From positions 1-26,450 of IMG/VR virus record IMGVR_UViG_3300034102_004172: a stretch of DNA of 26,450 nucleotides; one strand, 5' to 3'. The number at the start of each line of letters is the position of its first letter. The stretch's first letter is position 1. This document shows, one piece after another, positions 984 to 25,961 of the stretch. The translations under genes were made by a program, and so were the position numbers. The notes under the pieces were generated by a model, which was not told the origin of the DNA, ran no database searches, and was given only the letters and a program-made list of their open reading frames with translations. Source of the DNA: a virus.

Positions 984-991
984 TATTTATG
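984..991 (-). promoter_or_regulatory. T4-type late promoter (CATAAATA) for the fibre gene
   Basis: The minus strand reads CATAAATA, one base from the T4 late consensus TATAAATA and matching the NATAAATA form known from cyanomyoviruses. It overlaps the stop codon of the giant gene (987-989) and sits about 28 bases upstream of the fibre ATG, followed by the AAGGAG site. This should let the fibre gene be transcribed independently of the 16-kb gene before it. T4-type late transcription uses a gp55-like sigma factor, which is not in this window. Confidence 0.6.
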
Positions 992-12900: not shown

Positions 12901-15900
12901 AGTCCATATGGACCATAAATGGGATTGCCATCAAATGCCCATCCAATGATTGGAGAGTGAACAATACCAGACTGCTTCTCTACAATAACTCCATTTTCTA
13001 CAGTTAAGTTATCGCCAAGTACATATCTTAGTTGCTTTGGATTTGATACGTGCCCATATTCTCCACCAAATTGCTTGTTAAATCCTTCGAAGATAGAACC
13101 GTTTGCATAATCAAAGTTTGTGTTGCTGTTTAAGTTATAAGTCCACTCAAAAATTTCAGTTTGGAAATCTGCTCCTTCTCCAATAGATTCTAGTCTAATT
13201 TGAGTAGTACCTGGTTTATACCCAATACCTCTATTCAGAATAGTGATGGAAATCACTCTTCCTGCTTCTAGTCCTTCGGATTGAATATTTGCTCTTGCTA
13301 CAGCACCATAACCATCACCAGTAATAATGACCTTAGGAGCGGTAGTATAACCGTTACCAGAGGCGATAACTGCAATTGATACAATCCTGCCATTATTTAC
13401 ATACGCCTGTGCTGCAGCGCCTTCTCCGCTGCTTAGAACGACTTTAGGCTCTGATGTGTAATCTTGACCAGATGATACTACAAGTACTTCTTTGATTGGT
13501 CCTCTAACAAACGCCTCAGCAGCTGCTCCAGACCCTCCTCCACCAGTAATTGTAATGGTTGGTTTTGATGTATATCCTGAACCTGGGGTATTTACTAAAA
13601 TTCTAGATACAACTCCTTTTGTGACGATAGCAGTTGCTGATGCACCCTCTCCGTCGCCACCACCAGAAATTGAAACTAGAGGAGATGATGTGTATCCAGA
13701 ACCACTATTTGTTACAACAATCTCAGAAAGAGATCCATTTACGACAACACTACCAGATGCACCAGTACCATTTCCACCAACAAAATCAAGTACTGGTGGA
13801 TTTGCTGCGTCATAATTCTTTCCATAATTTAGTATATTTACTTTAGTTACTCCACCATATTTGTAGGTGGAATCTGATTTGTAGTTCCATACAGAAATAC
13901 CATTCACAAATGAACCAACAGGACCATATTGTGTTTCTGGTTTTAGTGAGATTGTTGATGGTACTTTGGGGAATCTATATAATTTTCTTTGGTTGCCTGG
14001 AAGTAATGAAGTACCTACAAAGGGACCAATCTTATAGTTTGGAATACCTGATGTAGCTACATAGACATACTTGCCATTAAAGAAAGTATTCTGAATATTG
14101 GTAGCAAACTTATTAATTGAGTTGTTGATTGATGGAACATCACTCTTTCCTTTGTTCAAGTCAATCGAGATTAGGATATTGCCTTGAGGATTTAGAGTTG
14201 CTGGTTGAGGAAGTTCGTATTTGAATACAGTTGCGCTTTCTCTTGAAGTTACTAGGAACGTTCCATTGTATACAATTGGGTTTGCACCATATACAGTAAC
14301 TTGATCTCCAACTAGAAGACCGTGAGCAGATGTGCAATTGACAGTCGCAGTTTGATCATTGATACCACCATATGTGATACTATCGATCTGCAGTAGTTTT
14401 TTGACGTTATACAACCAAGATCTGATTAGATTGTTATCTTCAATAGATCCTAATTTAGATACTGAAAGTTTATCTCCAGGTAGATAGTAACTACTTTCAT
14501 CAGTTAGTTGGGTATTACCAGACTCAACGATACCAAGAACTGATAGAACTACTTCTTCGGTAGTTCCCTGATTCGAATAGATGTAGAAGTTTGATGTACA
14601 AATAGTTCCAGAATCCCAAGACGCTGGTTCCTGATTAATGCCTCTAGTACATTCAATAAATTGAGTTAGTGATTTCTCCTTATAGCGAATTATCTCAGTA
14701 CCAATAATAACTTCTCCGTTCTTTTCTGGCCATCCAATTGTGGAGTCTACAGTAATAATAGAATCTTGATCTGATAGTGGTTCTGCAAGTCTAGTCTTAT
14801 ATGGAATGACGAATTTACCATTAATGGATTCTTCAGAAAGAATCAATTCATATACGTCAAAGTTTGCAGTCTGAATTGCAGTGAAGTTCTCTACTGTTGC
14901 AGATGCATACAGAACATTAGTATCCACTACATCCGCATTTTGCTCTAGAAGAGAGTCTTTTAGATTTTGGGGATTTCCAGAGATTAGTTTAGCACGAAGG
15001 ATGGTATCAATAGACCAAGTTGCTGCAGATGGTTTAATGATCTGGTCTTTTGGATAGGTGATATCAATTTCAACACCGTATAGAATTTTAAATAGGTATG
15101 CAATTGAATTCTTAGTACCCTTAGATGCATAGAAATCTTTTATAGTTCTAAGAACATTTGAGATGTCAATAGAATCAATATCCAGTTGAGGCATTCCTGG
15201 AAGATACTGAGATGTAATCTTCTCCATGATTTTTCTGAGGAATACCGCATCAAGTCCTTTAACATCGCTACCACTGATGTGAGATGCTTTGATGGATTCT
15301 GATTCTGATTTAAATACAGCATTATCCTCAGAATCATATTCTACGATTCCACTAACTCCTCTGCTACACTGAGCAAATTCTGACTTTGTATAGTTTTTAC
15401 CTGGGTTAATTACACGAAATCCAGTAATTTCACCAATTCCAATTTGAGCAGAAGCTTTTGCTCCAACTGGAGAAGAGATGAATACCTTTGGTGGAAACTC
15501 AATCGAATAATTTTCTCCAAATTCAGTAATATTGATATCGATAATCTGCCCGTTGAAAACTGTCGCTACAGCCTTTGCGCCAGTTCCTCCAATTGGGTTA
15601 CCTAAGTTATCTACTCTATCATCAACGATGTATACGCTAGGAACGTCATCATATCCAAAACCTCCAGATAGAAGTTCAATACCAATAACTCTTCCAAAAC
15701 TATCAACTTCAACATCCAAAATTTGAGCACCAGTTGGTTCAATTACCGAAACTCTTGGAAGTTCTGTTTGACTGTATCCAACTCCACCAGAGATGACAGT
15801 GATTGAAATGAGTTCACCAGAGGCGTTTATATTGCCCTGTAGGAGTGCTGTAATTCCATTTGCGGCGTCTGGGGCATCAATGTAGATTTGAGGCGCTGTA

Positions 15901-17255
15901 GAGTATCCAGAACCACCTTCTAAGACTTGTACAGATAGAACTACACCATTCTGATTAACGACAACATTTCCTACTTTTGCTCCAGATGGATTAACAAACT
16001 GAATTCTTGGTACGAAATCATATCCACTTCCACTATCGATAATATGGATTTCGTCAATACCACCATTATCGTTTACTGTAACGAGTCCTTTCGCAACAGA
16101 TCCTTCACCATTAGTGGGAGCTTGGATAGAAACTAGTGGAGGATTTTCCTTGGAGTATCCTTTTCCAGAGTCAATCAGTGTGACTGTTTTGACTCCACTT
16201 ACTAGAGCTTCTGCAGTTGCATTAGTACCAGTACTCTTAACGAGAGAGACTTTTGGTGTATTTTCTACTTTATATCCAGATCCACCATTTTTAACTAGGA
16301 TAGATTCTAGTTGACCAGAATCATTTACTACAGAAACTGCAGAAGCATCGCTACCAACATTAAGTAGAGGTGCATTGATGTATGCTACAAAAACCGATTC
16401 TGTTGGATACTGTTTAAAGATGATAGTGTCAGAATACAGACTAAAATCTTTAATTGGTGTTAGTAAATTTCCATCTACAATTGCAATAACTAAACTTGTA
16501 GATGAAGGAGAAGATGCAACTCCATTCACCTTAAGTTTGAAGTCATATCTAACTTCTTCTACGTTAGTATTGAGAATTGGTAATTGGTCAAATACCGCAA
16601 TTTCAGATTCTTGGAAACCCTTTAGATAGATAATTTTAATATCTTCACTAGTATCTCCAAGATTTATTGGATCATATTGTCTTGGTGGATTAGTGAATCT
16701 AATTTTGTCACTTAAGATTTGATAATCAACGCCAGGAATTAAGTATTCATTGTATAATTTTACAATGACATGCTCATTTGATGGTGGATAAACTGGTTCG
16801 TTATTTACCGTTAAATCGAACTCGAAGTTTATACCATCAAATTCTCTATATGGATTGAATAGAGGAACTAGTTTTTTATTGAATTCTGCATATGAAATAT
16901 CAGGAGTTAGGATGACATTTGGAGACTTCCTGACAAATTCATAATAAATTACTTCATCATCAATCAGTAGAGTTCCATTTTCTTCTGGAAATCCATCTGT
17001 TGTTTCTACTTCAATATTTCTGATATCTGCAGAGATGTCAGAAATCAACTTCGTATTGCTTCTTAACTGAGATACTTCATACTTAGAAAGATTGAAGTAG
17101 TCTGGTAGATTATTTAAAATGCCAACAGGCCCGCCACCTCTCTCCTGAGAACTATAATATGCTCTCAGAAATTTCTCGAAGAGTGGATTTTCCTCTTTAA
17201 TGAAATCTGGTACTTGATTTAGTACAGAAAGGGATGCTGATGCTAAGTTATGCAT
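987..17255 (-). CDS. Giant 5422-aa modular virion protein, in the gp7-gp8-gp9 position of the baseplate cluster
   Basis: One uninterrupted frame of 5423 codons, with ATG at 17255 and an AGGAG site (17269-17273) 13 bases upstream. The first 60 residues (FIKEENPLFEKFLRAYY, then GGGPVGILNNL) resemble N-termini of large cyanophage virion proteins. Visible modules by residue: 'NGILQ'-type beta modules about 140-300, 3480-3550 and 5117-5268; GSGY beta-repeat arrays about 305-630, 1140-1365, 2925-3150 and 5330-5395; IG-EIIxY...CTRG elements near 95 and 860; an HGLxVGD module near 980; a YHYH domain 1400-1555 (GWAFDGNPIYGPYG, YNGRF, TPEFPEGTYAYFVT, FPYIIGP); a beta-propeller-like region 1842-2200; a LamG-like domain 2250-2410; five helical repeats 3880-4710. 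I see no transmembrane segment or catalytic motif. It lies between gp6 and a gp10-like fibre, where T4 has gp7, gp8 and gp9, so a baseplate-periphery role is inferred. No clear gp7, gp8 or gp9 sequence match is visible to me. Confidence 0.9.
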   Translation of the reverse strand: MHNLASASLSVLNQVPDFIKEENPLFEKFLRAYYSSQERGGGPVGILNNLPDYFNLSKYEVSQLRSNTKLISDISADIRNIEVETTDGFPEENGTLLIDDEVIYYEFVRKSPNVILTPDISYAEFNKKLVPLFNPYREFDGINFEFDLTVNNEPVYPPSNEHVIVKLYNEYLIPGVDYQILSDKIRFTNPPRQYDPINLGDTSEDIKIIYLKGFQESEIAVFDQLPILNTNVEEVRYDFKLKVNGVASSPSSTSLVIAIVDGNLLTPIKDFSLYSDTIIFKQYPTESVFVAYINAPLLNVGSDASAVSVVNDSGQLESILVKNGGSGYKVENTPKVSLVKSTGTNATAEALVSGVKTVTLIDSGKGYSKENPPLVSIQAPTNGEGSVAKGLVTVNDNGGIDEIHIIDSGSGYDFVPRIQFVNPSGAKVGNVVVNQNGVVLSVQVLEGGSGYSTAPQIYIDAPDAANGITALLQGNINASGELISITVISGGVGYSQTELPRVSVIEPTGAQILDVEVDSFGRVIGIELLSGGFGYDDVPSVYIVDDRVDNLGNPIGGTGAKAVATVFNGQIIDINITEFGENYSIEFPPKVFISSPVGAKASAQIGIGEITGFRVINPGKNYTKSEFAQCSRGVSGIVEYDSEDNAVFKSESESIKASHISGSDVKGLDAVFLRKIMEKITSQYLPGMPQLDIDSIDISNVLRTIKDFYASKGTKNSIAYLFKILYGVEIDITYPKDQIIKPSAATWSIDTILRAKLISGNPQNLKDSLLEQNADVVDTNVLYASATVENFTAIQTANFDVYELILSEESINGKFVIPYKTRLAEPLSDQDSIITVDSTIGWPEKNGEVIIGTEIIRYKEKSLTQFIECTRGINQEPASWDSGTICTSNFYIYSNQGTTEEVVLSVLGIVESGNTQLTDESSYYLPGDKLSVSKLGSIEDNNLIRSWLYNVKKLLQIDSITYGGINDQTATVNCTSAHGLLVGDQVTVYGANPIVYNGTFLVTSRESATVFKYELPQPATLNPQGNILISIDLNKGKSDVPSINNSINKFATNIQNTFFNGKYVYVATSGIPNYKIGPFVGTSLLPGNQRKLYRFPKVPSTISLKPETQYGPVGSFVNGISVWNYKSDSTYKYGGVTKVNILNYGKNYDAANPPVLDFVGGNGTGASGSVVVNGSLSEIVVTNSGSGYTSSPLVSISGGGDGEGASATAIVTKGVVSRILVNTPGSGYTSKPTITITGGGGSGAAAEAFVRGPIKEVLVVSSGQDYTSEPKVVLSSGEGAAAQAYVNNGRIVSIAVIASGNGYTTAPKVIITGDGYGAVARANIQSEGLEAGRVISITILNRGIGYKPGTTQIRLESIGEGADFQTEIFEWTYNLNSNTNFDYANGSIFEGFNKQFGGEYGHVSNPKQLRYVLGDNLTVENGVIVEKQSGIVHSPIIGWAFDGNPIYGPYGLSDPTNLSSNIVPIQSSYSLKTNLVFNSVTNPEPYRIAGPSLQDFPAGTFIQDYEYVFRSEAFYLDQYNGRFTKTPEFPEGTYAYFVTLNADGSAAFPYIIGPNFYSIPDSWNLTQFAIQSNIPTGIVRYRAPFENVDIDVERDPNESTNALTLENGDVLTFEIEDENRDGFIDSSEASDPDQIFEESKLELFDYFPKIDISSKVDIEVETTTKFEEAKISDFLIENPGINYQVNDRLIFDDEGTEGYGASASIKSIQGEQITSYTYEYNTAQDEYFGVVQTAVPHNMEIGDFVSVDTTPIMEPTSKTLKVITVKGLEEVSVEVSGIGYDPNIEVEAFIDSISGQEAEVKAVVGKTGILDKINITNSGRGYVDNPKIRISHPQIQKRSVYYSVNKKYQSGVNINNSFVDQNKNLYYVGSVTSTNGDIHGYISKLNAEGTTLWSKSLTSIQPSAQAKRCQLLSVTKNGLDVYVIGQTYPNPLSASAFNPDIFIAKYTENSSGTEVSLSWQRELAGISGVNRNDYITDIAAYGENVVACGYTTTNSNGVNDGIVFYISNGGDVLIKRKITSTSSSEKLQSIQVDSDNNIYILGQSTAADNILLVKCKIDGSKINTIWQKEISYSNTKFEDLSLLIDEYDELYITSALENSSTSTKTKLALIKVDADGDLIFNKEYSIPSITSLSAAKSSIDIFGEIAIGYTAVDITSQLHSGIIKCKFNGDILNSYEMTSLEGVEISKCSSDVSGDPTLVGNIIENRTQFLYKGSSYSDTVGRYANLTSTGTVSVNTDPKFGTNAYTISQNAKLSATALTTQSNVWTIEGWFKWDTAASAKVPDLLTITDGTNSIKVSVFADSSSPSTFGKLRISNGGATISQFTTITNAVTLLSSGYRHISVSKSYNTSSSIATYTLYFNGSSVAQITTGFNLNPSTVEIGSTTSYNSWPVKLDEFRYSNYAIAYTSAPTAEFSGFDYANPSGFIMKFDKNADSERMGTINLTNNSFDITRSNITIPVVNNLELINIPYALGPDGLQILDFNAATSGLTQDYHIPTTVYDSWSTRTATVPSPGGRKAVFSSKAFGKFFFNYFNVSKLDNIRQLHINQDFRFNVGTNLLQRNSLNAIIASAKIVDIDYSNNYIYVADTTGSFVVDSGTLGSSDESINEIVNYGFEGVVNTSPGTFAINIPVEVEATFKPYSDDDYAVRIDEIIAGSPYAKGSVVVLGSSYFSFNTARNSVTIAGLSSVTKITLITNLKKTLQIDEISNTNRIYIRSATSHYLNAGDNIFGSTSPQYTYADGSFYVDQVLSQREFIFQIREVPGSFIGSGTQILIYVKHPVFKFIYGQQYTFDVSDPSNQGYYLSFYRDNLNKIEYTFKNIVRRGTPGLDAPGVSPFISFKVTDDVSNISYYADPSRINEFSPVAKSSYIDVVRSPYIGRFEISSLEGATVTTGANKFKFKLDIDPEKNAQSFTSSYSTESTKVAGSISSIRLISGGGFYKKLPIITDIQSSRKIERVEIRTPGTEYEPGEYFGVPILGDGNGGKVRIRVDGNSDPVGQIIEVVVTDPGKGYTEAFVDVDAIDGILGPNLAGSGAVLEVIIPPKGTGASIFVKGENVGKIKKLRNNNFGFDYTHDYTLRPEITFPVNLQLINTSVLSNIKVIDPGSGYTSIPEVVITGGGGSGATAEAEIRNGRISGILIKNPGFGYSTEPTIELKSTFTYVINLDLGLFQLPFPHGIGNGSEITFDIQDLGEGAAFPITSFGYIVPGQIYYAISGTTAGLENDQLRIALTPGDAESGNYISFVNTGSGRQILLTNSFGGSAEAVVETGRFLSGELVYQGDSLENSSAKGYVSGNDGWQIGPRLLKLIDTEGTFAEGQIVTGTISKSSGTINNINAAKGVIQVDSITKTAGKFLDDVGKTNEIVQKVQDSYLYQAFSYNIKSPVSIDQWKTIVLDNTHPTGFKLFGEIGVYNEEKGLTDKTDFQLTKSVNLIESSVVANIDNFGLVEPVYKEFDNTQVLFRTKRLTSSEEILTSYVQKIDDISNLFDGERTSFPLTIDGSTIIANTSQVQVILNGIAQSPVESYEIIQGSIVFKEPPPAPTKVSYAMLTLQFLPSYEIAIEDSSGILPELGQTIRGILSLATATVISSTTSTIRVFNINGTFQEGEIILASATGLSANLVSVTELENTNTFQFQESITNTSGKTAVVEEINLDSTTSIVTNEIIVSKTSGTYESPSGLLDIKFNDYIISAKTGILARVTSISPYIDPTTGEPLSSISISDPSTFSALLYNRIIQPEYPNVIIDDISKSSIEVVDLDDSTLKVEGKFPEFEIVSSTTFENVYDDSTTFQNGEFIQNLEIEYINSTGDFTANETAMVQKLAYKSLLGGNFQAGDQIVTNGGFTAEVIGVNYALKYVFLGEKSGSFSIGDTISTDKSFVSNDDIVSGRYADASDLILANKLLIADVAVGRMLANFPGFTVPNGNQNCIDDIISILDELCFNVKYGGNHRAYDVAQLYITNGYLAGEETQSVYAINQARDLAIQAMRNETITLGGYTTRTQVKDLTVEGDQSGEPGVYIPGDCADVASSITTLFAIVTQGISTGSISSITRTNIGTVTAIISTYLDIPFDVEQVYSATDKIITYQFYDDTHHRFRDAANLIRLNATYIIEEAAGRMKNLYSDLIIPGDEDGTGDGTSRCKLDLNLLLQAVADDIEKGGNYNTLTGARFYIDENGGLRYITKQVLQSLYAHEQMNLLCQQAVIGDLSQTPQYTNQSPIKPLDITTDPGDCADVRSKIDTLWSLINEVLCTTGDVYKDASNALWFNRKFIAEESVGLTTNYFTYYLNGVPYNAFVYPNGLEGKNTCIRDIKDYIIPSIIADLISGGDANTIDAMTYYINAVNDILYVKDELLPTIYALEQTNRLCQYAVDNWRITGTNTIYSAQWSSTPKYTDNTITLDDGTYGGQCANIKSAIDTLFTKAISILLPERDQYQNRNFDAANLIEANKQLIAEVAVGRMLNQYPTFTIPNGNQNCIDDIIAILGELSFNIRYGGNHKMYDAAQLYITNGYLAGEEVQAVYAFNQARDMAIQAMRNETITLGGYTTKTQVKDLDVTVDTSTPKCANVASAITTLFAILSQAVQNGNLTGITRTTDSASNIAYRNAAKLIMFNKNYIKAETMLVTLQNYPTFSVPGGNDKCLRDMGYIMDAIVYDLLTNGNSAILFATQSYIDAATGTIISLQGELVQSLFAYTKVRDYMKQAIAESLVSPAPNTGFYSYTDTSIALTASEISEINAFIDSKMSILLNTLNNSSYIEDNEIIAENGITVPNSIYPSRIDDTGILGGLNSGDYIYGLTSQINGEIKSITTNRATIKKLLTRIRVNFSNPIEIFKVGETITRQGFASINGTVYSYSYSENFNYVDIVMNSGQFSIGNILINDDGYVATVVSVSSKVQVSDLTGSFTNGQKVKGFKTSAISTISNFYSVSAPVLDNSGSKLTLDTEFYEGNFDVSSVIYSSTSDIYIDVEYYEGTQIGLADIIQTTNIYKLTLTLPDEETTVFEIGGVVNNEAILTQTARIIDYINEGSTVELYVGNLTEDLFAIGDTILYYEPNNNFPVGVAQIANAEIISSEAYGFVERIIPIGTAYRLYLSGVKGTFNQYAQTISKSGYRSIISSVGEVVGRIDRSFRGFDGVQSTFKVTINNGTAYYPNPDGHLLVFVNGILQPPGQSYTTFSDIIEFSEPPELGATFHSSYIGKLRKLDDISFEFDSLRNSFNLKLDEVFYSLTVTAGSESSNIKPENNLIVSLNGVIQEPGVAFELVGSRIIFAEIPRSGSSFVAFSYIGSDADVIAADVVPPIETGDELEIEGEDKDRTVAIIESSNSLVTFDYTGSVFGRNASALVDIIKGRIKTLSVTSSGDGYTSRPSVSIDSATGFDAQIKALVGVSRVDLVNSGSNYAYPTIEIINEVDENEESFLFDSTSVSFDGTAVTFDQS
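3629..3950 (-). repeat. Near-duplicate DNA copy, helical repeat 4
   Basis: This segment aligns without gaps to 5261-5582 at an offset of 1632 bases over about 270 bases or more. Roughly four of five bases match by eye. At the protein level about 80 of 98 residues are identical, from AVGRML to TQVKDL, including 20 consecutive shared residues around QAMRNETITLGGYTT. The other repeats in the array are far more diverged, so this pair looks like a recent duplication or gene-conversion pair. Confidence 0.8.
5261..5582 (-). repeat. Near-duplicate DNA copy, helical repeat 1
   Basis: This is the partner of the copy at 3629-3950, in the same orientation and reading frame. The two are separated by repeats 2 and 3, which do not share this level of identity. 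Confidence 0.8.
7790..8480 (-). repeat. GSGY beta-repeat array 3 (giant protein, residues about 2925-3150)
   Basis: Five degenerate units are visible, with signature turns GGGFYKKL, GTEYEPGE, GKGYTEAF, GSGYTSIPEVVITGGGGSGA and GFGYSTEP. Between turns the pattern is (I/V)xx(I/V)xVxxxG, typical of short alternating beta strands. Confidence 0.75.
13180..13850 (-). repeat. GSGY beta-repeat array 2 (giant protein, residues about 1140-1365)
   Basis: This is the most regular array, with six units. Turns are GKNYDAANPP, GSGYTSSP, GSGYTSKP, GQDYTSEP, GNGYTTAP and GIGYKPG. Each is followed by a VxIxGGGGxGAxAxA glycine/alanine loop and a GxVxxIxVxxxG strand, giving a period of about 35-40 residues. The array precedes the YHYH domain. 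Confidence 0.85.
15370..16350 (-). repeat. GSGY beta-repeat array 1 (giant protein, residues about 305-630)
   Basis: Eight units are visible, with turns GGSGYKVENTP, GKGYSKENPP, GSGYDFVP, GGSGYSTAP, GGVGYSQTELP, GGFGYDDVP, GENYSIEFPP and GKNYTKSE. They alternate with Gly/Ala-rich linkers such as PSGAKV and GTGAKA. The same unit recurs singly near residues 1770, 1825, 5345 and 5380, and in the separate 1402-aa protein. Confidence 0.85.
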
Positions 17256-17292
17256 TTTGTATTACTATCTCCTATACTTATATTTAACAGAG

Positions 17293-19701
17293 TTATGCGA
17301 AGCAGGTATCAGATGTTGTTGAATCTGCCTGTGTTAGGGATGGGTATGATACGACTGTTGGAGTTGATGTTATTGCCGTTGCTGGTGCAGATGCAAGACT
17401 TCCTGGAGCAAATGCTGCCACTGTAGCACTTCCTGGGGCCACTACAGTAATTGATGGTGGTGTAAGCGAAATCAACGTTCCTGGCGATCCAGCAGCGCCT
17501 GGAGTTGCTATAGCAGCAGTTGCAGTTACGGTAGTACCATTAGAAGTTGCCGCCGCTGCTGTAGATGAAGTACTGGCAGTTGTTGATGATGTCAACGATG
17601 CAGTTGTGGATGTTGTGGATGAAGTTAGTGAAGTAGTTCCACCAGATGTTGTTACACCACCAATAGTTAAAGAACCTCCAGAGATACCTGTTCCTGCCGC
17701 TCCACCAGAAACAATTTGACCATCAATTGTAATGAGACCAGAACCCTGACTTGATGTAGTTGTCTGACCCCCACCAGTTGCTGATGTACCAGAGACCAAT
17801 GCGCCAGAAGTTGATAGAACTTGCGTTGTATTTGGATCTGCAGAAATTGACTTTCCTGGTGTTAGTAGGCTCTTTGCAATTAACTTCCCACTAACTTCTC
17901 CAGGAGCAATGTTTGCTGGGTTCTTAGGTTTAATTGATAATTGGAGATAATTGACATCTCCTACAGGTGATATTGGACCAACTCTAACAATACCAGTAGA
18001 GCAATCATACAATCCAGCATTGTTGTTTGTGTACACCTTTTTATTATTTGAGATGTAATATTGTCTTAAATTGCCAATACCATCATCTTCTAGATATTGT
18101 AAAGTGCTAGGGCGGTCTGCAGTGTAGAATCCACTGGATTTAATTACATCGCCAGGAGAAGATGAGCATGAGCAATCTAACTCAATACCATAGTTCACAT
18201 CCCAAGTAGTTGGAAATCCTTTTTGTTCCTCTGATGGGTATCCAAGTAATTTAAATACAGAAACCTGAAGCATCACATCAACAATACTCTTGTCTGCTTG
18301 TAAGATTTCTTTTTGTATTTTTGATGTTGATAGTGTTTTATTGAAATTACCAAGGTCTTCTAAAGCACCAAATCTCTTGATAGCATTCAATGCTTTCTCT
18401 TTAATGATATCTGCAGTTCCTTCAGGTAACGCTTGAGATGTAGATGAACCAGATGTAAGAGCACTTTTAAAAGTATCTGCGACGACTAGGATATTTAAAT
18501 CCACAAAAATGTCTTCTGGGTCCTGAACCACAACCTCAATAGATGCCATTGAGTATGGTCTTAGGTCTTCGATTATTTGCTTTTTCGATAAGTTGTTTAA
18601 TCTGGTGTTGTTTTTTGTTTTTACTGAGATATAAATTTTGCCGTATACTGGAGGACTTAGTGTTTCTCCTCCAGTTGCTAGTACATATCTAGCGTTTGGG
18701 TAGATTGATTTTACAATATTTTCGTAGTCTTTTGTAGTTACTGCTCTATTCTGAGAAGCATAATATCTTGGAGCATTGAATTTGATGGACTTTAGAGTTT
18801 CTGGTTTATCTCCAAGTTGAGTTTTTTGATTCAATTCAAGTCTAACTCTAGATGGAGAGATTACTCTATCATCGGAATCAATGATCGACCCATTGAATGC
18901 CATAGTGGAAATATTGTTTCCATCAGGCCCATTTGTTCTGATATACTCAAAGATTACAATATTACCATCTTCTAATGCTTTACCTACAACGCCATCACCA
19001 AAAGTAATTTCATATCTTCTGTCCTCAAACTCACTAAGGAAGTATGCTCTTGATGTACTATCAATGTTGGTGATATTTTTTACTAGATTGTATCTATCTA
19101 CAGTTGTAGACTGGGCATTTTGCTTTACATACACTTGCAAAGTATCAATATCTACCCAATCGTTAGGAACGATGAATTTTTGATTTGTTGTCGTATCAAC
19201 TGTATATGTGTAACTTAATAGATCACCTTCATAAACTTTAAATGGTCCTATGGTAGCAATACCAGTTGTCTTATCTACTTCTGCTGTTTTATCTTGTGTG
19301 ATGGAAAAGGTGAAATTCTGTCTACCATTATTTCCACCAGCAACCGTACCCTTTTTAATCGTGACAGTTCCAGGGTATGATTGGGTCTGATTGAATTCTG
19401 TCTGCACCTGAAGAGTCACACACCCCCAAGCAGCCTTTGCTGATCTAGGTACGTAATTTAGCATTCTTGCTAGACTCGCAACATTGTCTCTAATGGTTGC
19501 GGTATCCAAAAATAGTTCATTCAATGCCATATTCGCATTAAATGAAGTGTAATACGTATTATAAGCTAGAACATCGAGCAAATACGATAGAGTTGAACCA
19601 TTGAAGTCATAATCAGAGAACTCTGGTCTGGTTCTCATGTATGATTTAATGGATTCCCTTATCTCATTAAAATCTAGAGTAGTTAAATTTGATGGTTTCA
19701 T
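17293..19701 (-). CDS. gp6: Baseplate wedge protein gp6 with Ser/Thr/Ala/Gly-rich C-terminal extension
   Basis: This 802-aa protein is the inner-ring baseplate wedge subunit, which in T4 forms the dodecameric ring with gp25 and gp53. The N-terminal region matches the gp6 pattern: an FxEIRExIKSYM-like helix, then SDYDFNGSTLSYLLDVLAYN near residues 24-43 (T4: LDYDFEGSRLNVLCDLLAYN), ELFLDTATIRDNV and ARMLNYVPRSAKAA. The central RYYASQNRAVTTKDYENIV segment (about residues 305-325) is typical of baseplate J-like/gp6 proteins. T4 gp6 is about 660 aa; here the last 190 or so residues are low complexity (TSLTSSTTSTTASLTSSTTA and similar), ending DTCFA. The ATG overlaps the gp25 stop as TAATG, implying translational coupling. 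Identity is secure; the role of the tail is unknown. Confidence 0.93.
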   Translation of the reverse strand: MKPSNLTTLDFNEIRESIKSYMRTRPEFSDYDFNGSTLSYLLDVLAYNTYYTSFNANMALNELFLDTATIRDNVASLARMLNYVPRSAKAAWGCVTLQVQTEFNQTQSYPGTVTIKKGTVAGGNNGRQNFTFSITQDKTAEVDKTTGIATIGPFKVYEGDLLSYTYTVDTTTNQKFIVPNDWVDIDTLQVYVKQNAQSTTVDRYNLVKNITNIDSTSRAYFLSEFEDRRYEITFGDGVVGKALEDGNIVIFEYIRTNGPDGNNISTMAFNGSIIDSDDRVISPSRVRLELNQKTQLGDKPETLKSIKFNAPRYYASQNRAVTTKDYENIVKSIYPNARYVLATGGETLSPPVYGKIYISVKTKNNTRLNNLSKKQIIEDLRPYSMASIEVVVQDPEDIFVDLNILVVADTFKSALTSGSSTSQALPEGTADIIKEKALNAIKRFGALEDLGNFNKTLSTSKIQKEILQADKSIVDVMLQVSVFKLLGYPSEEQKGFPTTWDVNYGIELDCSCSSSPGDVIKSSGFYTADRPSTLQYLEDDGIGNLRQYYISNNKKVYTNNNAGLYDCSTGIVRVGPISPVGDVNYLQLSIKPKNPANIAPGEVSGKLIAKSLLTPGKSISADPNTTQVLSTSGALVSGTSATGGGQTTTSSQGSGLITIDGQIVSGGAAGTGISGGSLTIGGVTTSGGTTSLTSSTTSTTASLTSSTTASTSSTAAAATSNGTTVTATAAIATPGAAGSPGTLISLTPPSITVVAPGSATVAAFAPGSLASAPATAITSTPTVVSYPSLTQADSTTSDTCFA

Positions 19702-20120
19702 TAATTTACTGGTCTCTCTAATAGGAATTTGTTATTAATGATTTGAGGTTCTCCAATAATTCTATATGTCAGAGTAACTACTATTGCACTATCATCATCT
19801 TCTATAGCAGTCACAAGAACATCTAAAACATCAACTCTAGGTTCAAAATTTCTAATAGTATTTAGTATCCTATCCTTCAAATCTATAGCAGAAAATGCAT
19901 CAAGAGGTTCGAATAGCATATTATATACATCAGAACCAATTGATGGATCCATTAATTTTTCACCAAACTTGGTCATAATCAAGTTTTTAATAGATTGTGT
20001 AACGGCAGATTCGTCTCTGAGAGAGATTACGTCGTTAGTTAGGGGATTTTTGCTGAAATTTGTGCCTACATCTCTAAAAGATCTAGGCGTAGCCCTAAAA
20101 ATACTATCGGAATCTGCCAT
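19701..20120 (-). CDS. gp25: Baseplate wedge protein gp25 (TssE/gp25 lysozyme-like fold family)
   Basis: This 139-aa protein is close to the length of T4 gp25 (132 aa). It carries the family's conserved EPR core motif in IRNFEPRVDVLDV (about residues 88-100), preceded by the SIKNLIMTKFGEKLMDPSIG segment (about 43-62) typical of gp25. In T4, gp25 staples wedges to each other and to the sheath initiator. Despite the historical 'lysozyme-like' label, no catalytic site is expected. The gene is the first of the late operon, 29 bases downstream of an exact late promoter. Its ribosome site is weak: only GAAG at 20135-20138 is visible. The stop is shared with the gp6 start. Confidence 0.93.
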   Translation of the reverse strand: MADSDSIFRATPRSFRDVGTNFSKNPLTNDVISLRDESAVTQSIKNLIMTKFGEKLMDPSIGSDVYNMLFEPLDAFSAIDLKDRILNTIRNFEPRVDVLDVLVTAIEDDDSAIVVTLTYRIIGEPQIINNKFLLERPVN

Positions 20121-20148
20121 TATATGACACTATACTTCTATTTTGTAT

Positions 20149-20156
20149 TATTTATA
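20149..20156 (-). promoter_or_regulatory. Late promoter TATAAATA upstream of gp25
   Basis: The minus strand reads TATAAATA, an exact match to the T4 late-promoter consensus recognised by the gp55-type sigma with the sliding-clamp activator. It lies about 29 bases upstream of the gp25 ATG and 10 bases past the stop of the 59-aa gene. It should drive gp25, gp6 and the giant gene. I found no equally good late promoter between gp6 and the giant gene. Confidence 0.75.
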
Positions 20157-20165
20157 TGGGATATC

Positions 20166-20345
20166 TTAGTGCCATCGCTCCACATAATCATCAAAACCAC
20201 CCTTACCTCCACATGGTCGTGAGTACCTATCGATGGGTGGGTCATTTTTTCGCATTTCGGGAACGTAATCGGTAACTAATCTAGTAGTACCCCACATTTC
20301 CTTCATGTATTTGGTGTCTCTGTCAGGATTTGAGTTCATTGCCAT
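20166..20345 (-). CDS. Small hypothetical protein, 59 aa
   Basis: A complete short gene: ATG at 20345, TAA at 20166-20168, with an AGGAG site at 20353-20357 only 7 bases upstream, among the best-placed in the window. The product starts MAMNSNPDRDTKYMKEMW and ends GGKGGFDDYVERWH. It is polar, rich in charged and aromatic residues, with one cysteine and no membrane segment. I do not recognise it. It sits between an intrinsic terminator (20399-20440) and the gp25 late promoter, so its own promoter must lie in about 55 bases where I see no convincing box, or it depends on read-through. The strong ribosome site supports a real gene. Confidence 0.7.
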   Translation of the reverse strand: MAMNSNPDRDTKYMKEMWGTTRLVTDYVPEMRKNDPPIDRYSRPCGGKGGFDDYVERWH

Positions 20346-20398
20346 CTGTTTTCTCCTAAGAATAGATTAAAACAGAACTTTTTACGGGGTTGCTATCC

Positions 20399-20440
20399 CG
20401 AAAATAAAAGGGTACTACACTCAAATGAGCGTAATACCCT
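20399..20440 (-). terminator. Rho-independent terminator
   Basis: On the minus strand AGGGTATTACGCTC pairs with GAGTGTAGTACCCT over 14 bp, including two G-T wobbles, around an ATTT loop. A TTTTATTTT tract follows at once. It ends transcription coming from the 46-aa gene and the PAAR operon before the 59-aa gene and gp25. On the plus strand the stem is not followed by a T tract, so it acts in one direction. Confidence 0.9.
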
Positions 20441-20471
20441 GCATGTTAGCAAAAATTAGTGTAAAAGTTGA

Positions 20472-20612
20472 TCATCCCTGACCCCTGTAACGCTTTCGAG
20501 CCTTATTTCGACTGGTAGAAGCATATTTAGTGTGCTTGCCAAGACCTTGACGAGACTTTTTGGGTTTGGATTCGATGATATCTTTGTTTGTCAGTGAAGG
20601 ACGCTTTGCCAT
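20472..20612 (-). CDS. Small very basic protein, 46 aa (conserved in cyanophages, function unknown)
   Basis: ATG at 20612 and TGA at 20472-20474. The product starts MAKRPSLTNKDIIESKPKKS and continues RQGLGKHTKYASTSRNKARK to RYRGQG. It is dominated by Lys and Arg with only two acidic residues, and has no hydrophobic core large enough for a stable globular domain, so nucleic-acid binding is a reasonable inference. From memory, short proteins with the KPKKSRQG...KYxxTSRN...RYRGQG pattern recur in marine T4-like phages; I cannot name a function. No clear ribosome site precedes the ATG. The gene has its own sigma70-type promoter upstream and an intrinsic terminator downstream, unlike its late neighbours. 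Confidence 0.78.
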   Translation of the reverse strand: MAKRPSLTNKDIIESKPKKSRQGLGKHTKYASTSRNKARKRYRGQG

Positions 20613-20639
20613 ATTCGGATATCGGTTAAAGACTTGAGT

Positions 20640-20668
20640 AGTATACCATATTTTGGGTCATTTGCCAA
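20640..20668 (-). promoter_or_regulatory. Sigma70-type promoter for the 46-aa gene
   Basis: The minus strand has TTGGCA (20663-20668), exactly 17 bases, then TATACT (20640-20645). Each hexamer is one mismatch from consensus. The -35 box overlaps the last codons of the PAAR gene. Predicted initiation near 20633 gives a leader of about 20 bases. A host-type promoter here suggests early or middle expression. Confidence 0.6.
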
Positions 20669-21179
20669 CCATTACATTGATTGAACCGCTAGCAATTACT
20701 GATCTACAAGGCGGTCCTAGTGGATCTCCTACCGTTGCAAGTGGTCTACCATTGACTAGAACCGATTTTCCGCTCGCATAGACCTTCCTATCATGCCCCC
20801 TGCCATTATAAATCATGTCTTCAGTTGATAATTTGCCACATGGAATCGATTTTTGGTCCAATCTTGCACAACTATCACCCGAAGGGACCAATCTTGTAAC
20901 TAAATTTGTACATGATGAGGGATGAATGGTCAATAAATCACCATGAAGGAGCGGAACTTGACCATTAATCAGTACATTTCTGGCAATAGGTACCTTTAAA
21001 CGAGTATTTAAGGGAGGCCAATTACAAGTTGCGTCTTTAGTTGAGACTGGTTTTGGTATAATTGGGAATGGTGAAGTATATGGAGGGGAGCAAGCACCTA
21101 AAAATTGGTGAATGTGCTCTGGAATGCACACTCCATGACCACTACAAGTGCCCGCTACAGTTGCTGCTAGTCCTGGCAT
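20658..21179 (-). CDS. PAAR-like baseplate spike tip protein
   Basis: This 173-aa protein is likely the sharpened, metal-binding cap of the central tail spike, the role of T4 gp5.4. Evidence: GHGVCIPEHIHQFLGAC near residues 14-30 with clustered Cys and His, the NVLINGQVPLLHGDLLTIHP strand-turn unit near 68-87, and the C-terminal pair VLVNGRPLATVGDP (about 140-153) and ASGSINVMVGK (163-173). The latter is the classic PAAR ending in which SGSxNVxxxGK forms the last strands. Ten or so Cys/His residues spread along the chain could bind more than one metal. It is about twice the length of a minimal PAAR domain and looks like two half-repeats. The ATG is 1 base after the upstream TGA, with AGAGGG 8 bases before it. 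Confidence 0.82.
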   Translation of the reverse strand: MPGLAATVAGTCSGHGVCIPEHIHQFLGACSPPYTSPFPIIPKPVSTKDATCNWPPLNTRLKVPIARNVLINGQVPLLHGDLLTIHPSSCTNLVTRLVPSGDSCARLDQKSIPCGKLSTEDMIYNGRGHDRKVYASGKSVLVNGRPLATVGDPLGPPCRSVIASGSINVMVGK

Positions 21180-21180
21180 A

Positions 21181-24100
21181 TCAATAACCCTCTGGTACAG
21201 TCTCGCTTAATTGTGTTGGTGCTTCAGAATCATCATTATTCTGAGCGTCTTCTGTAATATATAGGTCTTCCTCACCCAAATCACCATATTGCCTGTTGCA
21301 AACAAAGTCATATGGATTTCCATATTTGTCAACAGACTCCGCAAATATTTTAGTCTCTTGAGTCAAGTCATGATAGATTTGCAATCTGCCATGAACTTCA
21401 TAACTACGGCATCCATCCGAAACCATACGGTCACCAACTCTATATCCAGAAAGTTCCATTAGACTATTAATGTTGTTATACCAAACACCCCCAATGTATC
21501 CTCCTTTATCTGAGAATGGTACTGCATATGTAGTGGCGTTTTGCGTCACACCAAGACCCATTCCACCATACCAACCTAGAGTTGGTAATCCATATTCACT
21601 GACACAAAAAGCATCTTCAATATCAAGAGTAGAATCTTCGAATGTATTTCTGATTTGCTGCAGAACTGTCTGTAGGGCTGGTTGATCTTCCAAACATTTT
21701 GTGCATACAGTTAAGTCGGGATTATTTGGATCTGGTGGATTTTTGATTACACCCAATCTTATTGTGATATGTGTCCAAGGCCTTGGATCTGGACAAAATC
21801 TTCTCATCAGATATAAATTCTCATCATCACGGCATGGTAATGCAAAGAACGATTTCTCTGTGACCATCATGGACGTATTATTCCAAGTACCATACCTATA
21901 GTCTTCAAGATCTCTTTCCCACATTTCATCTAATGATTCTGTGAGTTGATTTTCCTGAACTTGGATAGAGTTTGGTACAGAGTTCACATAGTCCTTTCCA
22001 TATCGTACATTTGGATTTCCCTTTCCTAATTTTCTGGTGAAATCTTTGAACTCTTTAGTGTAACTAACATTTCCTTCACTTGTTGATGGAACTTTACTCT
22101 TCACCAATGATGGATTTGATTTTGCTGAAATATCATTCACTACATCTTCAGTACCTTCTGGAGCAGCAGATGTATTGATTACTGTTCCAGTAGGACTCGA
22201 TAGACTTATTGTGGATACTGAAGAATATGTACTGAAAGCACTTCTTTGACTTGCAGAAAGTTTGTTGGTGATGTAAGTATTCACAGCACGAGTTTGTTCC
22301 TCGGTCCATTTACCAGTAGTGATATTCTGAGTGGTTGTATTTGCAATAGTAATATTTTCAGAATTGAATTTGGTCACTGATGGAATATTACTATACTCAT
22401 CTCTTCTCTCTTTTAGTTTTTTGATTTGCTGCTGCTGGTCTGCAGTTAAATCATTTTCACTGAATGCCCTAATGAAGTTTTTCTTGACACCACGATCTTC
22501 ATATCTAAAAGATCTTTTGGTATTACTTTGACGCATGGAATCGACATCTGGTTTTAATCTAGATGTAATAACTTCATTATGAACATCGGACTGTTTCTTA
22601 GAATAACTCTGCCAGTCTAATCCAGTTTTGCTATATGATTGGAAAATTGGAGATTCTTTAAATACTCTATAATTATCTGCCTCAGCAATGTTTATATCTT
22701 TTGCTTCTCTGGCAACTGTATCTATCTTCCTCGCAATGTAAGGAACAAATACGTCAGGTGGATTTGTAGATGAGTATCCAGATCCACCATTCAATACTCT
22801 TACATCAACCAAACGGCCGCGAGAAATGATTGGTTCTAGTTGAGCAATGACACCAGTACCCTTACATCTTCTTTTTGCTTTTGCTACAGACACTCCTTGA
22901 TTGATTAGAGTGTTGTACAAATCGTGATTAAAGTAGGTTGGTGGAGGCGATACTGAAAGTTTAATATTTTCGATGTTTTTATTTGTAAGACCCCTGCCCT
23001 TACTTATGATCTTTATTCTAGAAACACGACCATTTTCGATTTTTGCAACACACTTTGGTTTGATGATTTTTGGTGCAAACGGAATCCCCTCATTTGGAAT
23101 TGCTGTACCATATTCTATTTCTTTTTTCTTAAATTCGTACTTGCCAATTAATATTGCTCTATCCTTAATGCCCCATCCAGCAACAACTTTGATATTCTGA
23201 CCATTGCTTGCAGTATATACTGCATCCTTCGTAAAGTCTGCAGTTCCGTTAGAGAGTTCTGCCAAGTGCATATTGAACTCATTATCACTATGCTTTACAT
23301 TTTTAATGGCCCATCCATTGACAGTCATATTGGTTGATAGGTAATCAACATCGTCAACCACTTCTTGAGTATCCTGAGTTTCTGAGATAACCAGAGTGAC
23401 TGATATTCTATCCTCAGCATCTTTATCTGGGAAGTACAATACAAACTTATTTTGATCAACAAAGTCCACACCATTCCCAGGAGAATACCCATACCCACGA
23501 TTGAGTATGCGATCTATCTTCCAAATTGTGTTATATTGATTTGTGTTACTATCCCACTCAGAATTGATTTTCATTCTTATGCGAAGACCACCATTCATTG
23601 TGTAGTCTTTGAAGACGGTTGTATTATTTGATACCCAACAATCACCAGAAGTTGATTTAAATGCAACTCCTTCAGATCCATTCCATGAGTCTACAAACCC
23701 TGCCTGCTTGAGAGTCATACCTCTGAAGCAGTCTCCACCATTGATACCATTCACAGCGTTCCTAGAGGTCCATACGATGGATCCAGCGAGGTTCTTGAGA
23801 ACGATTGCATATCCAGCAGGATTGGCAGTCCAACTTGTATTAGTGCCACCATTCCTCACCTTGATACGGAAATTGATATACCCTGCTTTCTGAACAGTAA
23901 AGGTACCAGTGATGGGAGATCCATTATATCCACCCGATACTGTAAACTGTTTATTCTCATCAGATGAGACTAGGATATAATCATCACCTTCATTGGTAAC
24001 ACCGTAGGAATCTACTGCAATCGTACCTTCATCATCGATTGCCATTTCTAGGGAATATGCTCCTGCAGAAACAGGAATCTTCTTATTGATGATATTGACT

Positions 24101-25389
24101 TCTCTACCAACAAGATTATTCTGCATGTTGTTGGTCCATACCATGTAGTTGTTGGCAAAAGTATTCCAACCAGAATTGCCACTCACAGCAAACAATCCAC
24201 CAACAAACTTAGATTCCTTCAGCATGAAATCTACAGGTACACCACCAATCTTTCCACTTGGATTATCTTTATCTCCTACAGGAACAATAATGATGTCCCC
24301 CATAATCTCTTGAGTGATAATTGAGTTAGTGACCAAACTGGTTGGTTTCACTGCAACTCTTGTTCTACTTGATGGCCATCCACCAGAAGGTAGTGATACA
24401 ACTCCGTTGACCTTAACTTCAGTATTAGCGTGGTTTCTATCTGTTCTATGTGATCTGAATGTCATATCCAAGATCATACCATTTGAGAATGATACGTTCT
24501 GGCGAGATTCATATCCATTGGGATATTGAGTTCCATAGTCCTCTTTACTTCCCCACATCTTAATACCCCAGCGAGTATAGATGTAGTTCCCCAAGGATGC
24601 ATTGTGTCTATAGACTAAATGACTTTCACTGCCTTCATTTGGTCTATAGCGAAGCATTACTGCTGAACTCTTTGTTGTGTAGCGAAATGCTACTGCTTGA
24701 CGTTTTGTACCAACTGCCCAGAACAATGGATATGCATCTTCATCGTATGCAGGGTTGGTTATTCCATCTTCTAAGTTATATCTGATGTAGGTTTCGTCTG
24801 GATGGCAAGGACATTCAAACGGGGTTTTTCTCATCTGATAAGTCCAGCGTGGAGCCGTAGCACCATCACCAGATCCACCTCCAGCAAAATAAGTCACTGT
24901 GAAACACCAAGAGTGGCAAGGTGTTCCAGTGACTCCGTTGTAGGTATCAAACATGTAATAGAACCAACTATCCGAGAAGTTTGGTTCAAAACTAATCTCT
25001 GATGGATAGTGATCCCAGTAACGAGTTTTTACAGGATTTACAATTGCACCAGGAACAAGAGCATTGGTACATGCAAATCCATTAGCCTCCCACCACTTCG
25101 TTGTGACGATGGGAGCATTTAATTTTCCTGCGTTATCTCCAATATCATTCTTATTGCCGAAGAGATAATCAGGTGTAGTTGTTGGACTTGTAGAATATGT
25201 GCTGTAACGATTGGGCGCAACAGACTGACACACATCATCAAAGTCATACATCACACGATCACGTTCCCAAGTAGGAGCATTGATGTGATTCGTATTTCTC
25301 TTTGGATAGTTCTCTTTAGACATGAGGACCCCAATATTGGGATCATTCAGTGGACTAAAATCTGGACATGATTTACTGTTGCAAGGCAT
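21181..25389 (-). CDS. Large virion-associated protein, 1402 aa, unrecognised
   Basis: I recognise no known family over the full length. The N-terminal 220 residues are aromatic and cysteine-rich (MPCNSKSCPDF, CHSWCFTVTYFAGGG, FECPCHPDE). Residues about 480-560 look like a beta sandwich (SGGYNGSPITGTFTV, FRIKVRNGGTNTSW). Residues about 770-880 hold two GSGY-type units (GRVSRIKIISKGRG and GRLVDVRVLNGGSGYSS) like those in the giant protein. Residues about 965-995 form a charged helix (TADQQQQIKKLKERRDEY). The C-terminal 230 residues contain a CTKC pair, glycine/aromatic-rich GWYGGMGLG and an acidic tail. The gene is 3 bases after the coiled-coil gene and 1 base before the PAAR gene, so co-translation and a structural tail or spike role are likely. 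There is no signal peptide. Confidence 0.85.
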   Translation of the reverse strand: MPCNSKSCPDFSPLNDPNIGVLMSKENYPKRNTNHINAPTWERDRVMYDFDDVCQSVAPNRYSTYSTSPTTTPDYLFGNKNDIGDNAGKLNAPIVTTKWWEANGFACTNALVPGAIVNPVKTRYWDHYPSEISFEPNFSDSWFYYMFDTYNGVTGTPCHSWCFTVTYFAGGGSGDGATAPRWTYQMRKTPFECPCHPDETYIRYNLEDGITNPAYDEDAYPLFWAVGTKRQAVAFRYTTKSSAVMLRYRPNEGSESHLVYRHNASLGNYIYTRWGIKMWGSKEDYGTQYPNGYESRQNVSFSNGMILDMTFRSHRTDRNHANTEVKVNGVVSLPSGGWPSSRTRVAVKPTSLVTNSIITQEIMGDIIIVPVGDKDNPSGKIGGVPVDFMLKESKFVGGLFAVSGNSGWNTFANNYMVWTNNMQNNLVGREVNIINKKIPVSAGAYSLEMAIDDEGTIAVDSYGVTNEGDDYILVSSDENKQFTVSGGYNGSPITGTFTVQKAGYINFRIKVRNGGTNTSWTANPAGYAIVLKNLAGSIVWTSRNAVNGINGGDCFRGMTLKQAGFVDSWNGSEGVAFKSTSGDCWVSNNTTVFKDYTMNGGLRIRMKINSEWDSNTNQYNTIWKIDRILNRGYGYSPGNGVDFVDQNKFVLYFPDKDAEDRISVTLVISETQDTQEVVDDVDYLSTNMTVNGWAIKNVKHSDNEFNMHLAELSNGTADFTKDAVYTASNGQNIKVVAGWGIKDRAILIGKYEFKKKEIEYGTAIPNEGIPFAPKIIKPKCVAKIENGRVSRIKIISKGRGLTNKNIENIKLSVSPPPTYFNHDLYNTLINQGVSVAKAKRRCKGTGVIAQLEPIISRGRLVDVRVLNGGSGYSSTNPPDVFVPYIARKIDTVAREAKDINIAEADNYRVFKESPIFQSYSKTGLDWQSYSKKQSDVHNEVITSRLKPDVDSMRQSNTKRSFRYEDRGVKKNFIRAFSENDLTADQQQQIKKLKERRDEYSNIPSVTKFNSENITIANTTTQNITTGKWTEEQTRAVNTYITNKLSASQRSAFSTYSSVSTISLSSPTGTVINTSAAPEGTEDVVNDISAKSNPSLVKSKVPSTSEGNVSYTKEFKDFTRKLGKGNPNVRYGKDYVNSVPNSIQVQENQLTESLDEMWERDLEDYRYGTWNNTSMMVTEKSFFALPCRDDENLYLMRRFCPDPRPWTHITIRLGVIKNPPDPNNPDLTVCTKCLEDQPALQTVLQQIRNTFEDSTLDIEDAFCVSEYGLPTLGWYGGMGLGVTQNATTYAVPFSDKGGYIGGVWYNNINSLMELSGYRVGDRMVSDGCRSYEVHGRLQIYHDLTQETKIFAESVDKYGNPYDFVCNRQYGDLGEEDLYITEDAQNNDDSEAPTQLSETVPEGY

Positions 25390-25392
25390 TAC

Positions 25393-25740
25393 TTACTTAC
25401 CCTGGTCAAATAGTTGGTTCTCAATTTTATTTAGACGTTCGTAAATAAGATCGAGATTACCACCAAGACCAACGTAATCATCATTCCCAGGAGGTTTGTA
25501 CTGTAGACTCGATTTACCAAGAAGTTCTGTAGTAACAAACTTCTCAATGTTATCCAATCGAGTCTCTACACTTTCTTTGATATACTTTTCAATATCACTG
25601 GTGCGTTCAATGAGTTTTGTAATGATATCATTAATGATCTCATGTGCTTTCTCATTATCTTTAAATTTAAAGTCCATGTATCCACGATCTTGTTGAAGTA
25701 ATAGTTCCTTCAGTTTCGTGTTGGGATTTTCTTCAGTCAT
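25393..25740 (-). CDS. Hypothetical coiled-coil protein, 115 aa
   Basis: ATG at 25740 with AGAGGT (25751-25756) 10 bases upstream. The product is charged and mostly helical: EKAHEIINDIITKLIERTSD and VETRLDNIEKFVTTELL (residues about 30-74), a PPGNDDYVGLGG hinge, then a short heptad segment LDLIYERLNKIENQLF at the C-terminus. The heptads suggest an oligomer, perhaps a trimer attached to a virion part. It lies directly before the 1402-aa gene with a 3-base gap, so a shared structural role or chaperone-like role is possible. I do not recognise the family. Confidence 0.8.
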   Translation of the reverse strand: MTEENPNTKLKELLLQQDRGYMDFKFKDNEKAHEIINDIITKLIERTSDIEKYIKESVETRLDNIEKFVTTELLGKSSLQYKPPGNDDYVGLGGNLDLIYERLNKIENQLFDQGK

Positions 25741-25762
25741 GCTATAATATACCTCTAAGTTT

Positions 25763-25786
25763 TACGCGGTAAACGGGCTACGCGGT
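25763..25786 (-). repeat. Tandem 8-bp direct repeat ACCGCGTA (possible operator)
   Basis: The minus strand carries ACCGCGTA at 25779-25786 and again at 25763-25770, a 16-base period, between the AbrB-like stop and the ribosome site of the 115-aa gene. A third copy, in the longer form ACCGCGTAGC shared with the 25777-25786 copy, lies at 26014-26023 inside the 77-aa gene. GC-rich octamers repeated three times in 260 bases stand out in AT-rich DNA. An operator role is inference. Confidence 0.4.
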
Positions 25787-25795
25787 TTTTTTTTC

Positions 25796-25960: not shown

Positions 25961-25961
25961 G

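Follow-up and report, generated by a model that had tools for sequence, protein, structure and literature searches.

The preQ1-I riboswitch and the leader of T4 gene 32 are short H-type pseudoknots with an A-rich third loop that lie near the ribosome-binding site, and in the T4 gene 32 mRNA this leader holds a protein-binding autoregulatory element. The manA, wcaG, glnA and PhotoRC-II elements are described as cis-regulatory RNAs of T4-like cyanophages in the available portion of Weinberg 2010 (PMC2864571), while excerpts of two further studies (Sullivan 2010, PMC3037559; Puxty 2018, PMC5931967) describe a division of labour in T4-like phages between sigma70 early promoters and gp55 late promoters. 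In the present study a stretch of 26,450 nucleotides of viral DNA (IMG/VR record IMGVR_UViG_3300034102_004172; hereafter the window) was analysed around a gene for a basic 46-aa protein, and the main novelty of the locus is an RNA leader that adjoins this gene.

The leader resembles the preQ1-I and gene 32 pseudoknots in its proposed short H-type form, its A-rich third loop and its location near a ribosome-binding site, but differs from them in having its own loop words (AUAGNAAC and GUUCU), in possessing a further covarying hairpin of which GUUCU is also a part, and in lacking a match to any family of Rfam 15 at gathering score (best score, freshwater-2 with 18.6 bits against a cutoff of 49.9). 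It shares with the manA, wcaG, glnA and PhotoRC-II RNAs an apparently cis-regulatory character and carriage by T4-like cyanophages, although its sequence is different and it accompanies other genes. The promoter of the 46-aa gene is of the same extended -10 sigma70 type as the early promoters of T4-like phages, as opposed to the TATAAATA late type, and differs from them in lying inside the late structural region, where it overlaps PAAR codons.

The locus and its relatives

Synechococcus phage S-CREM1, the closest cultured relative and a T4-like cyanophage belonging to the Kyanoviridae, is 82% identical to the window over positions 18000-23000. The genes of the minus strand are arranged in the order 1402-aa structural protein, PAAR, 46-aa ORF, 59-aa ORF, gp25, gp6 and 5422-aa ORF (Table 1). 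The last of these occupies positions 987-17255 (minus strand) as a single reading frame, and its S-CREM1 counterpart is annotated as a baseplate wedge subunit. The original prediction had placed the 46-aa gene, as a unit of its own, between two late structural operons, which holds in so far as PAAR lies upstream and gp25, with its TATAAATA promoter, downstream; however, the gene of the 59-aa protein intervenes between the terminator and the gp25 promoter.

Table 1. Positions of the genes, signals and RNA elements of the locus, in window coordinates
Feature	Position	Strand	Basis
PAAR-motif spike-tip protein, 173 aa	20658..21179	-	phrog_281 E 1e-22; Pfam PAAR_motif 27.2 bits, cutoff 27
Sigma70-type promoter TTGGCA-17-TATACT, extended -10 TGG; predicted start near 20633	20640..20668	-	direct reading and scan
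46-aa basic protein, PHROG 516	20472..20612	-	phrog_516 E 6.3e-23
Intrinsic terminator, 14-bp stem and U tract TTTATTTT	20409..20440	-	scan, folding
Structured RNA leader of the 59-aa gene	20346..20402	-	recurrence, covariation, folding
Leader stem 1 CGGG/CCCG	20400-20397 with 20388-20385	-	covariation
Leader proposed pseudoknot AG-N-AAC/GUUCU	20394-20389 with 20378-20374	-	complementarity, N bulged
Leader hairpin CUGUUUU/AAAACAG	20375-20369 with 20352-20346	-	encloses ribosome-binding site AGGAG (20357-20353)
59-aa protein, phrog_1414 (unknown function), 3' of RNA leader	20166..20345	-	phrog_1414 E 1e-6
T4-type late promoter TATAAATA of gp25	20149..20156	-	one of only two ATAAATA sites in window
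gp25 baseplate wedge	19701..20120	-	phrog_261 E 1.2e-48, Pfam GPW_gp25
gp6 baseplate wedge	17293..19701	-	phrog_219 E 8e-183

The Lys/Arg-rich 46-aa ORF was found as predicted, with a net charge of +13 and a pI of 11.5, and matches the PHROG 516 profile over its full length (profile positions 4-47 of 48). The S-PM2 member of this family is S-PM2p079, labelled T4-LIKE GC 394; it is the same protein over its full length and occupies the same place upstream of gp25, and what is added here to this known hypothetical protein is its promoter and terminator context. By tblastn (E up to 10) PHROG 516 was detected in 450 of 50,697 phage records, by name 443 Synechococcus, Cyanophage or Prochlorococcus, five Marine, one Pelagibacter and one Bifidobacterium, and a second query returned 449 records, all with cyanophage or Marine names, suggesting that essentially all carriers are T4-like cyanophages. 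As the window gp25 matches 373 Synechococcus and 61 Cyanophage records, the two genes are about equally common in cyanophages. The PHROG 516 gene is unannotated, or lies under a different overlapping ORF, in P-SSM2 (L005), Syn19 (L007), S-CAM1, S-CAM8, P-RSM3 and P-RSM6. No PHROG 516 gene was seen just upstream of gp25 in the stretch of S-CREM2 examined (L277), for which reason the available part of the S-CREM2 virion proteome (PMC10665884) is uninformative on the 46-aa protein; cluster C cyanophages may lack the gene or carry it elsewhere.

For comparison among phages, an alignment scan of viral contigs yielded at least 506 relatives; the best 80 were kept and supplemented by the window, by S-CREM1 and by nine loci from reference phages, giving 91 sequences. 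Removal of 11 that failed the motif pattern, four duplicates and two that were cut short left 74 unique loci, the identities and counts of which, being those of the best matches of at least 506 plus hand-picked phages, do not describe a random sample. Cellular genome contigs contained a further 13 loci of the 46-aa gene; a cellular origin was considered and rejected, these loci being read as phage or contaminant since gp25 lies beside the gene in all of them. In the locus from a Nonlabens xiamenensis isolate (L110, NZ_RMVE01000006.1, 188,235 bases) the adjacent gp6 is 99.6% identical to that of cyanophage P-TIM40 (188,632 bases), and this contig is probably a contamination.

An RNA leader preceding the 59-aa gene

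Past the terminator, the stretch TTCGGGATAGCAACCCCGTAAAAAGTTCT recurs with very little change in loci that are otherwise divergent. Viral contigs were scanned with exact patterns, each scan returning at least 120 stretches, and at least 166 unique copies of the leader were collected. An ORF of at least 30 aa follows in 165 of 166 copies, many of these ORFs being similar to the 59-aa protein of the window, and four of five downstream ORFs tested matched PHROG 1414 at E 0.1 or better. Judged by pattern, 30 of the 74 loci have the leader in the interval that separates the 46-aa gene from gp25. A covariance model recovered it in 15 of 59 sources examined at E <1e-5 (two of the 15 being S-CREM1) and in L108 at E 0.005; its matches include the marine phages S-RSM4 and ACG-2014f, and four S-PM2 stretches gave none. 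Copies are also present in loci L004, L006 and L012-L016. The core words of the leader were not found in a literature search, and the S-CREM1 annotation lists manA, wcaG and glnA, with nothing at the leader's place. Neither the leader nor a function of the 46-aa gene is named in the accessible parts of the P-HM2 transcriptome (PMC5082946) or of PMC3037559, PMC5931967, PMC2864571, PMC9964418 and PMC10665884. As far as the Rfam scans and the literature search show, the leader is undescribed.

Stem 1 of the leader covaries. When this stem was left free in the scan, new copies were obtained in which both arms had changed together; among the at least 166 copies the arms read CGGG/CCCG in 117, AGGG/CCCT in 25, GGAG/CTCC in two and TGGG/CCCA in one, along with others, and mismatches are also present (e.g. 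AGGG/CCCG in eight copies). In 74 thinned copies 38 double-change cells were counted, a figure inflated by the relatedness of the copies, and the covariation score was 0.291, a value that none of 500 shuffled alignments reached (0.088 in shuffles) and that fell to 0.051 or less when the stem was slid. The outer pair occurs as CG, AU, GC, UA and UG; only two of the four pairs vary, and the pair and type counts fall within those of shuffles (104 and 226 of 500, respectively, reach them).

The loop AG-N-AAC is complementary to GUUCU, the variable base being the bulged N. The five pairs of this proposed pseudoknot are invariant in all 74 copies, these bases having been fixed in the search patterns, and a scan in which they were free produced no new locus among the matches listed. 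Since the pairs never vary, the pseudoknot is conserved but without covariation support. The second hairpin begins inside GUUCU and comprises at least 5 bp in 69 of 74 copies, compared to 26 in shuffled copies (maximum 38), with arms such as CTGATTT/AAATCAG, CTGTTTT/AAAACAG and CTAATTC/GAATTAG. The ribosome-binding site is paired with the GUUCU segment in 36 copies and located in the loop in 23; the second stem covers or encloses it in 59 of 74, the remainder consisting of ten copies without a recognisable site, three without the stem and two with the site elsewhere. Minimum free energy folds contained both stems in four of five examples, another pairing being favoured in the fifth (L242).

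Because the GUUCU bases are common to the pseudoknot and the hairpin, the leader probably switches translation of the 59-aa gene. It would fold either into the pseudoknot or into the hairpin, in which the ribosome-binding site is covered or enclosed, and a translational ON switch, active when the pseudoknot is stabilised, would be the simplest reading. A consensus scan detected no promoter-like site between the terminator and the leader in the window, and the 59-aa gene may therefore depend on read-through or on upstream transcripts. A TAAATA box lies no more than 30 nt upstream of the leader in 17 of 166 copies, in which a late transcript would thus begin with the leader. It is somewhat probable, in our view, that the leader represents a class of cis-regulatory RNAs that is common among T4-like cyanophages and, according to our searches, undescribed, in which a metabolite- or protein-driven pseudoknot frees the hidden ribosome-binding site of a small protein, and which, together with the host-promoter gene, would provide a two-step control at the late border. 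That the element is a protein-binding autoregulatory one, as in the T4 gene 32 mRNA, rather than a metabolite riboswitch is a serious possibility, if one to which we would give slightly less than even weight: a proposed H-type pseudoknot with an A-rich loop lies just upstream of the start codon and the ORF of a small protein follows in 165 of 166 copies, but the small size and variable sequence of the proteins encoded downstream do not resemble those of a conserved RNA-binding partner.

Conservation and probable expression class of the 46-aa protein

Comparison of the 46-aa gene with that of S-CREM1 (NG86) revealed three amino-acid changes and 14 synonymous nucleotide differences (dN 0.034, dS 0.76, dN/dS about 0.04), indicating that the coding frame is real and under strong purifying selection. 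Thirteen of the 46 positions are invariant in 72 aligned sequences, including P17-K18, Q22-G23, S34-R35-N36 and R43-G44-Q45-G46. The median identity to the window is 74% for the 46-aa protein as against 40% for gp25 and is higher for the former in 69 of 69 loci, these having been chosen by similarity to the peptide; across eight reference phages the corresponding ranges are 53-87% and 33-42%. A Shine-Dalgarno sequence is absent ahead of the ORF (20613-20630) in the window and S-CREM1 and present in S-PM2 and S-RIM32. PHROG, Pfam, NCBIfam, PADLOC and PDB sequence searches identified no homologue of known function, 'phrog_516' was not found in a literature search, and the AlphaFold2 model is of low confidence (mean pLDDT 62, pTM 0.19).

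A peptide that is small, basic, probably disordered and highly constrained most likely binds a conserved acidic partner, and the 46-aa peptide would most likely be disordered when free and fold on that partner. Its charge and very high conservation suggest that ribosomal RNA or the ribosome, or host RNA polymerase or nucleic acid, is a more likely partner than a virion protein. The original proposal that it acts on nucleic acid is plausible in the light of its charge and predicted disorder. A ribosomal bL27-like peptide was considered as a candidate identity on account of a resemblance of STRNG to TSRN.

The late box sets the gene apart from gp25. TAAATA occurs within 60 nt upstream of the 46-aa gene in none of 74 loci, compared to 53 of 65 for gp25, and within 110 nt in one of 74 and 57 of 65, respectively. 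In the window, TATAAATA at 20156-20149 precedes the gp25 start (20120), and ATAAATA is depleted on both strands (two sites against 11.4 expected); its rarity and the position of both sites just ahead of gene starts fit a functional late promoter. The claim that the 46-aa gene is expressed unlike its neighbours is consequently upheld in part: it has a host-type promoter and, unlike gp25, no late box within 60 nt, but the pattern is not general, as in 13 of the 21 loci with PAAR just upstream it starts no more than 10 nt from the PAAR stop, without a promoter, and there it should be co-transcribed with structural genes. Synthesis at a different time, although plausible for the window, thus cannot be a general rule. 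The gene appears to stay upstream of the late boundary, and its expression, alone or with PAAR, would differ between lineages.

Owing to the fixed neighbourhood, the main rival to these readings is a baseplate or virion-assembly factor, i.e. a late protein of small size with gp25, gp6 or PAAR as its binding partner, for which the sigma70-type promoter would be a minor extra. In 72 of 74 loci gp25 is located downstream, in 21 PAAR directly precedes the gene, and the 13 promoterless loci in which the gene is fused to the PAAR end are as such a role would have it. We nevertheless regard this role as rather unlikely, given that the protein is far more conserved than gp25, unlike a co-evolving partner, and that a late box of its own is never found within 60 nt. 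The available part of the S-CREM1 virion proteomics (PMC9964418) reports only 14 proteins as detected.

Promoter, terminator and the late border

The predicted promoter overlapping the end of the PAAR gene is present on the minus strand, with -35 TTGGCA at 20668-20663, inside the last codons of the PAAR ORF, -10 TATACT at 20645-20640, and TG one base upstream of the -10. It matches 10 of 12 consensus positions with a spacer of 17 (the test allowing -35 and -10 hexamers at 16-18 nt). Promoter-like sites are not enriched in 14000-26450 (34 found against 44.1 expected in a consensus scan versus shuffles), and the promoter is therefore weak as a single-sequence feature, the case for it being carried by conservation in relatives. 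Using a pattern of an extended -10, or TTGAC with a -10, at -65 to -12, a sigma70-type promoter was found 5' of the 46-aa gene in 24 of 74 unique loci (17 of 52 clusters at 80% identity), compared to a mean of 0.68 and a maximum of 4 in 200 dinucleotide shuffles; the other 50 loci lack one under the patterns used. The extended -10 and a TTGGCA-like -35 align across divergent phages as TTGGCA..TGNTATAATA....AGT. Where the gap after PAAR measures 35-58 nt the promoter is present in eight of eight loci, and where it is 10 nt or less in none of 13.

Across the genomes of S-PM2 and S-CREM1, extended -10 sites show no enrichment. Copies of the same extended -10 word precede psbA and hsp20 of S-PM2 by 90-105 nt (about 135234, L094; 96091, L093), and it is possible that these genes and the 46-aa gene share a promoter class. 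An AGTY word 3' of the -10 was considered as an additional promoter element and rejected, being weak genome-wide.

The 14-bp terminator after the 46-aa ORF is likewise as predicted, a GC-containing stem being followed by a U tract, with a folding energy of -23.9 kcal/mol (z -5.8; 0 of 200 shuffles equally stable). In 14000-26450, terminator-like sites are about as frequent as expected (seven against 6.5), and the terminator, like the promoter, is thus weak as a single-sequence feature. The S-CREM1 counterpart consists of a long stem (15 pairs including wobble) and a tail. A terminator lies within 120 nt downstream in 17 of 74 loci (16 of 52 clusters), as against a mean of 0.35 and a maximum of 1 in 20 shuffles, the other 57 having none under the patterns used. 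Promoter and terminator occur together in three loci, namely the window, S-CREM1 and L022 (two of 52 clusters). Conservation of the promoter-gene-terminator arrangement in relatives was accordingly borne out for each signal but not for the combination, and the self-contained one-gene unit appears to be lineage-specific.

The scarcity of loci with both signals would also be expected if the arrangement were a coincidence, the gene being simply the last of the preceding operon and the terminator an insulator of the late operon, and in many loci the 46-aa gene does come last in a series of small genes, followed by a terminator but lacking a promoter close by. This is an unlikely explanation, since the promoter frequency exceeds the shuffled level more than 30 times, promoter presence agrees with the PAAR gap without exception in 21 loci, and the spacing and the -35/-10 words align across phages. 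Promoter and terminator would instead act as punctuation between gene classes, with the 46-aa gene probably expressed as an early or middle gene.

We judge it an evenly balanced proposition that the interval constitutes a regulatory boundary in a T4-like cyanophage, made up of the host-promoter 46-aa gene, the terminator, the switch-like leader and the late gp25-gp6 operon; the parts, their conservation and the covariation of stem 1 are observations, and inference supplies the timing, the partner of the peptide, the mechanism of the switch and its ligand. Host RNA polymerase with the housekeeping sigma factor would initiate at the promoter, which overlaps the stop codon of PAAR, and transcribe the 46-aa gene, a core gene of cyanophages, and the terminator would stop most transcription ahead of the gp25-gp6 operon, itself equipped with a gp55-type late promoter. 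The supply of the peptide would in this way precede the late programme or not depend on it, and transcripts passing the terminator would enter the leader of the 59-aa gene. It is very improbable that the peptide is an internal head or DNA-condensing peptide packed with the genome, as are the T4 internal proteins: its strong positive charge and small size would suit this, and by inspection many copies have, ahead of xPK, an [IV]E-[SAG] similar to a maturation cleavage site, but this site misfits the T4 protease rule and is absent from several members, and the gene has no link to head genes.

PHROG 516 is about as common in cyanophage records as gp25 and more conserved, yet it is without an assigned function, and the gene's own host-type promoter makes an early action of the 46-aa peptide on the host testable. 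If the leader is a real switch, it would be a new phage riboregulator, potentially with a new ligand, carried by viruses that rank among the most abundant in sunlit waters.
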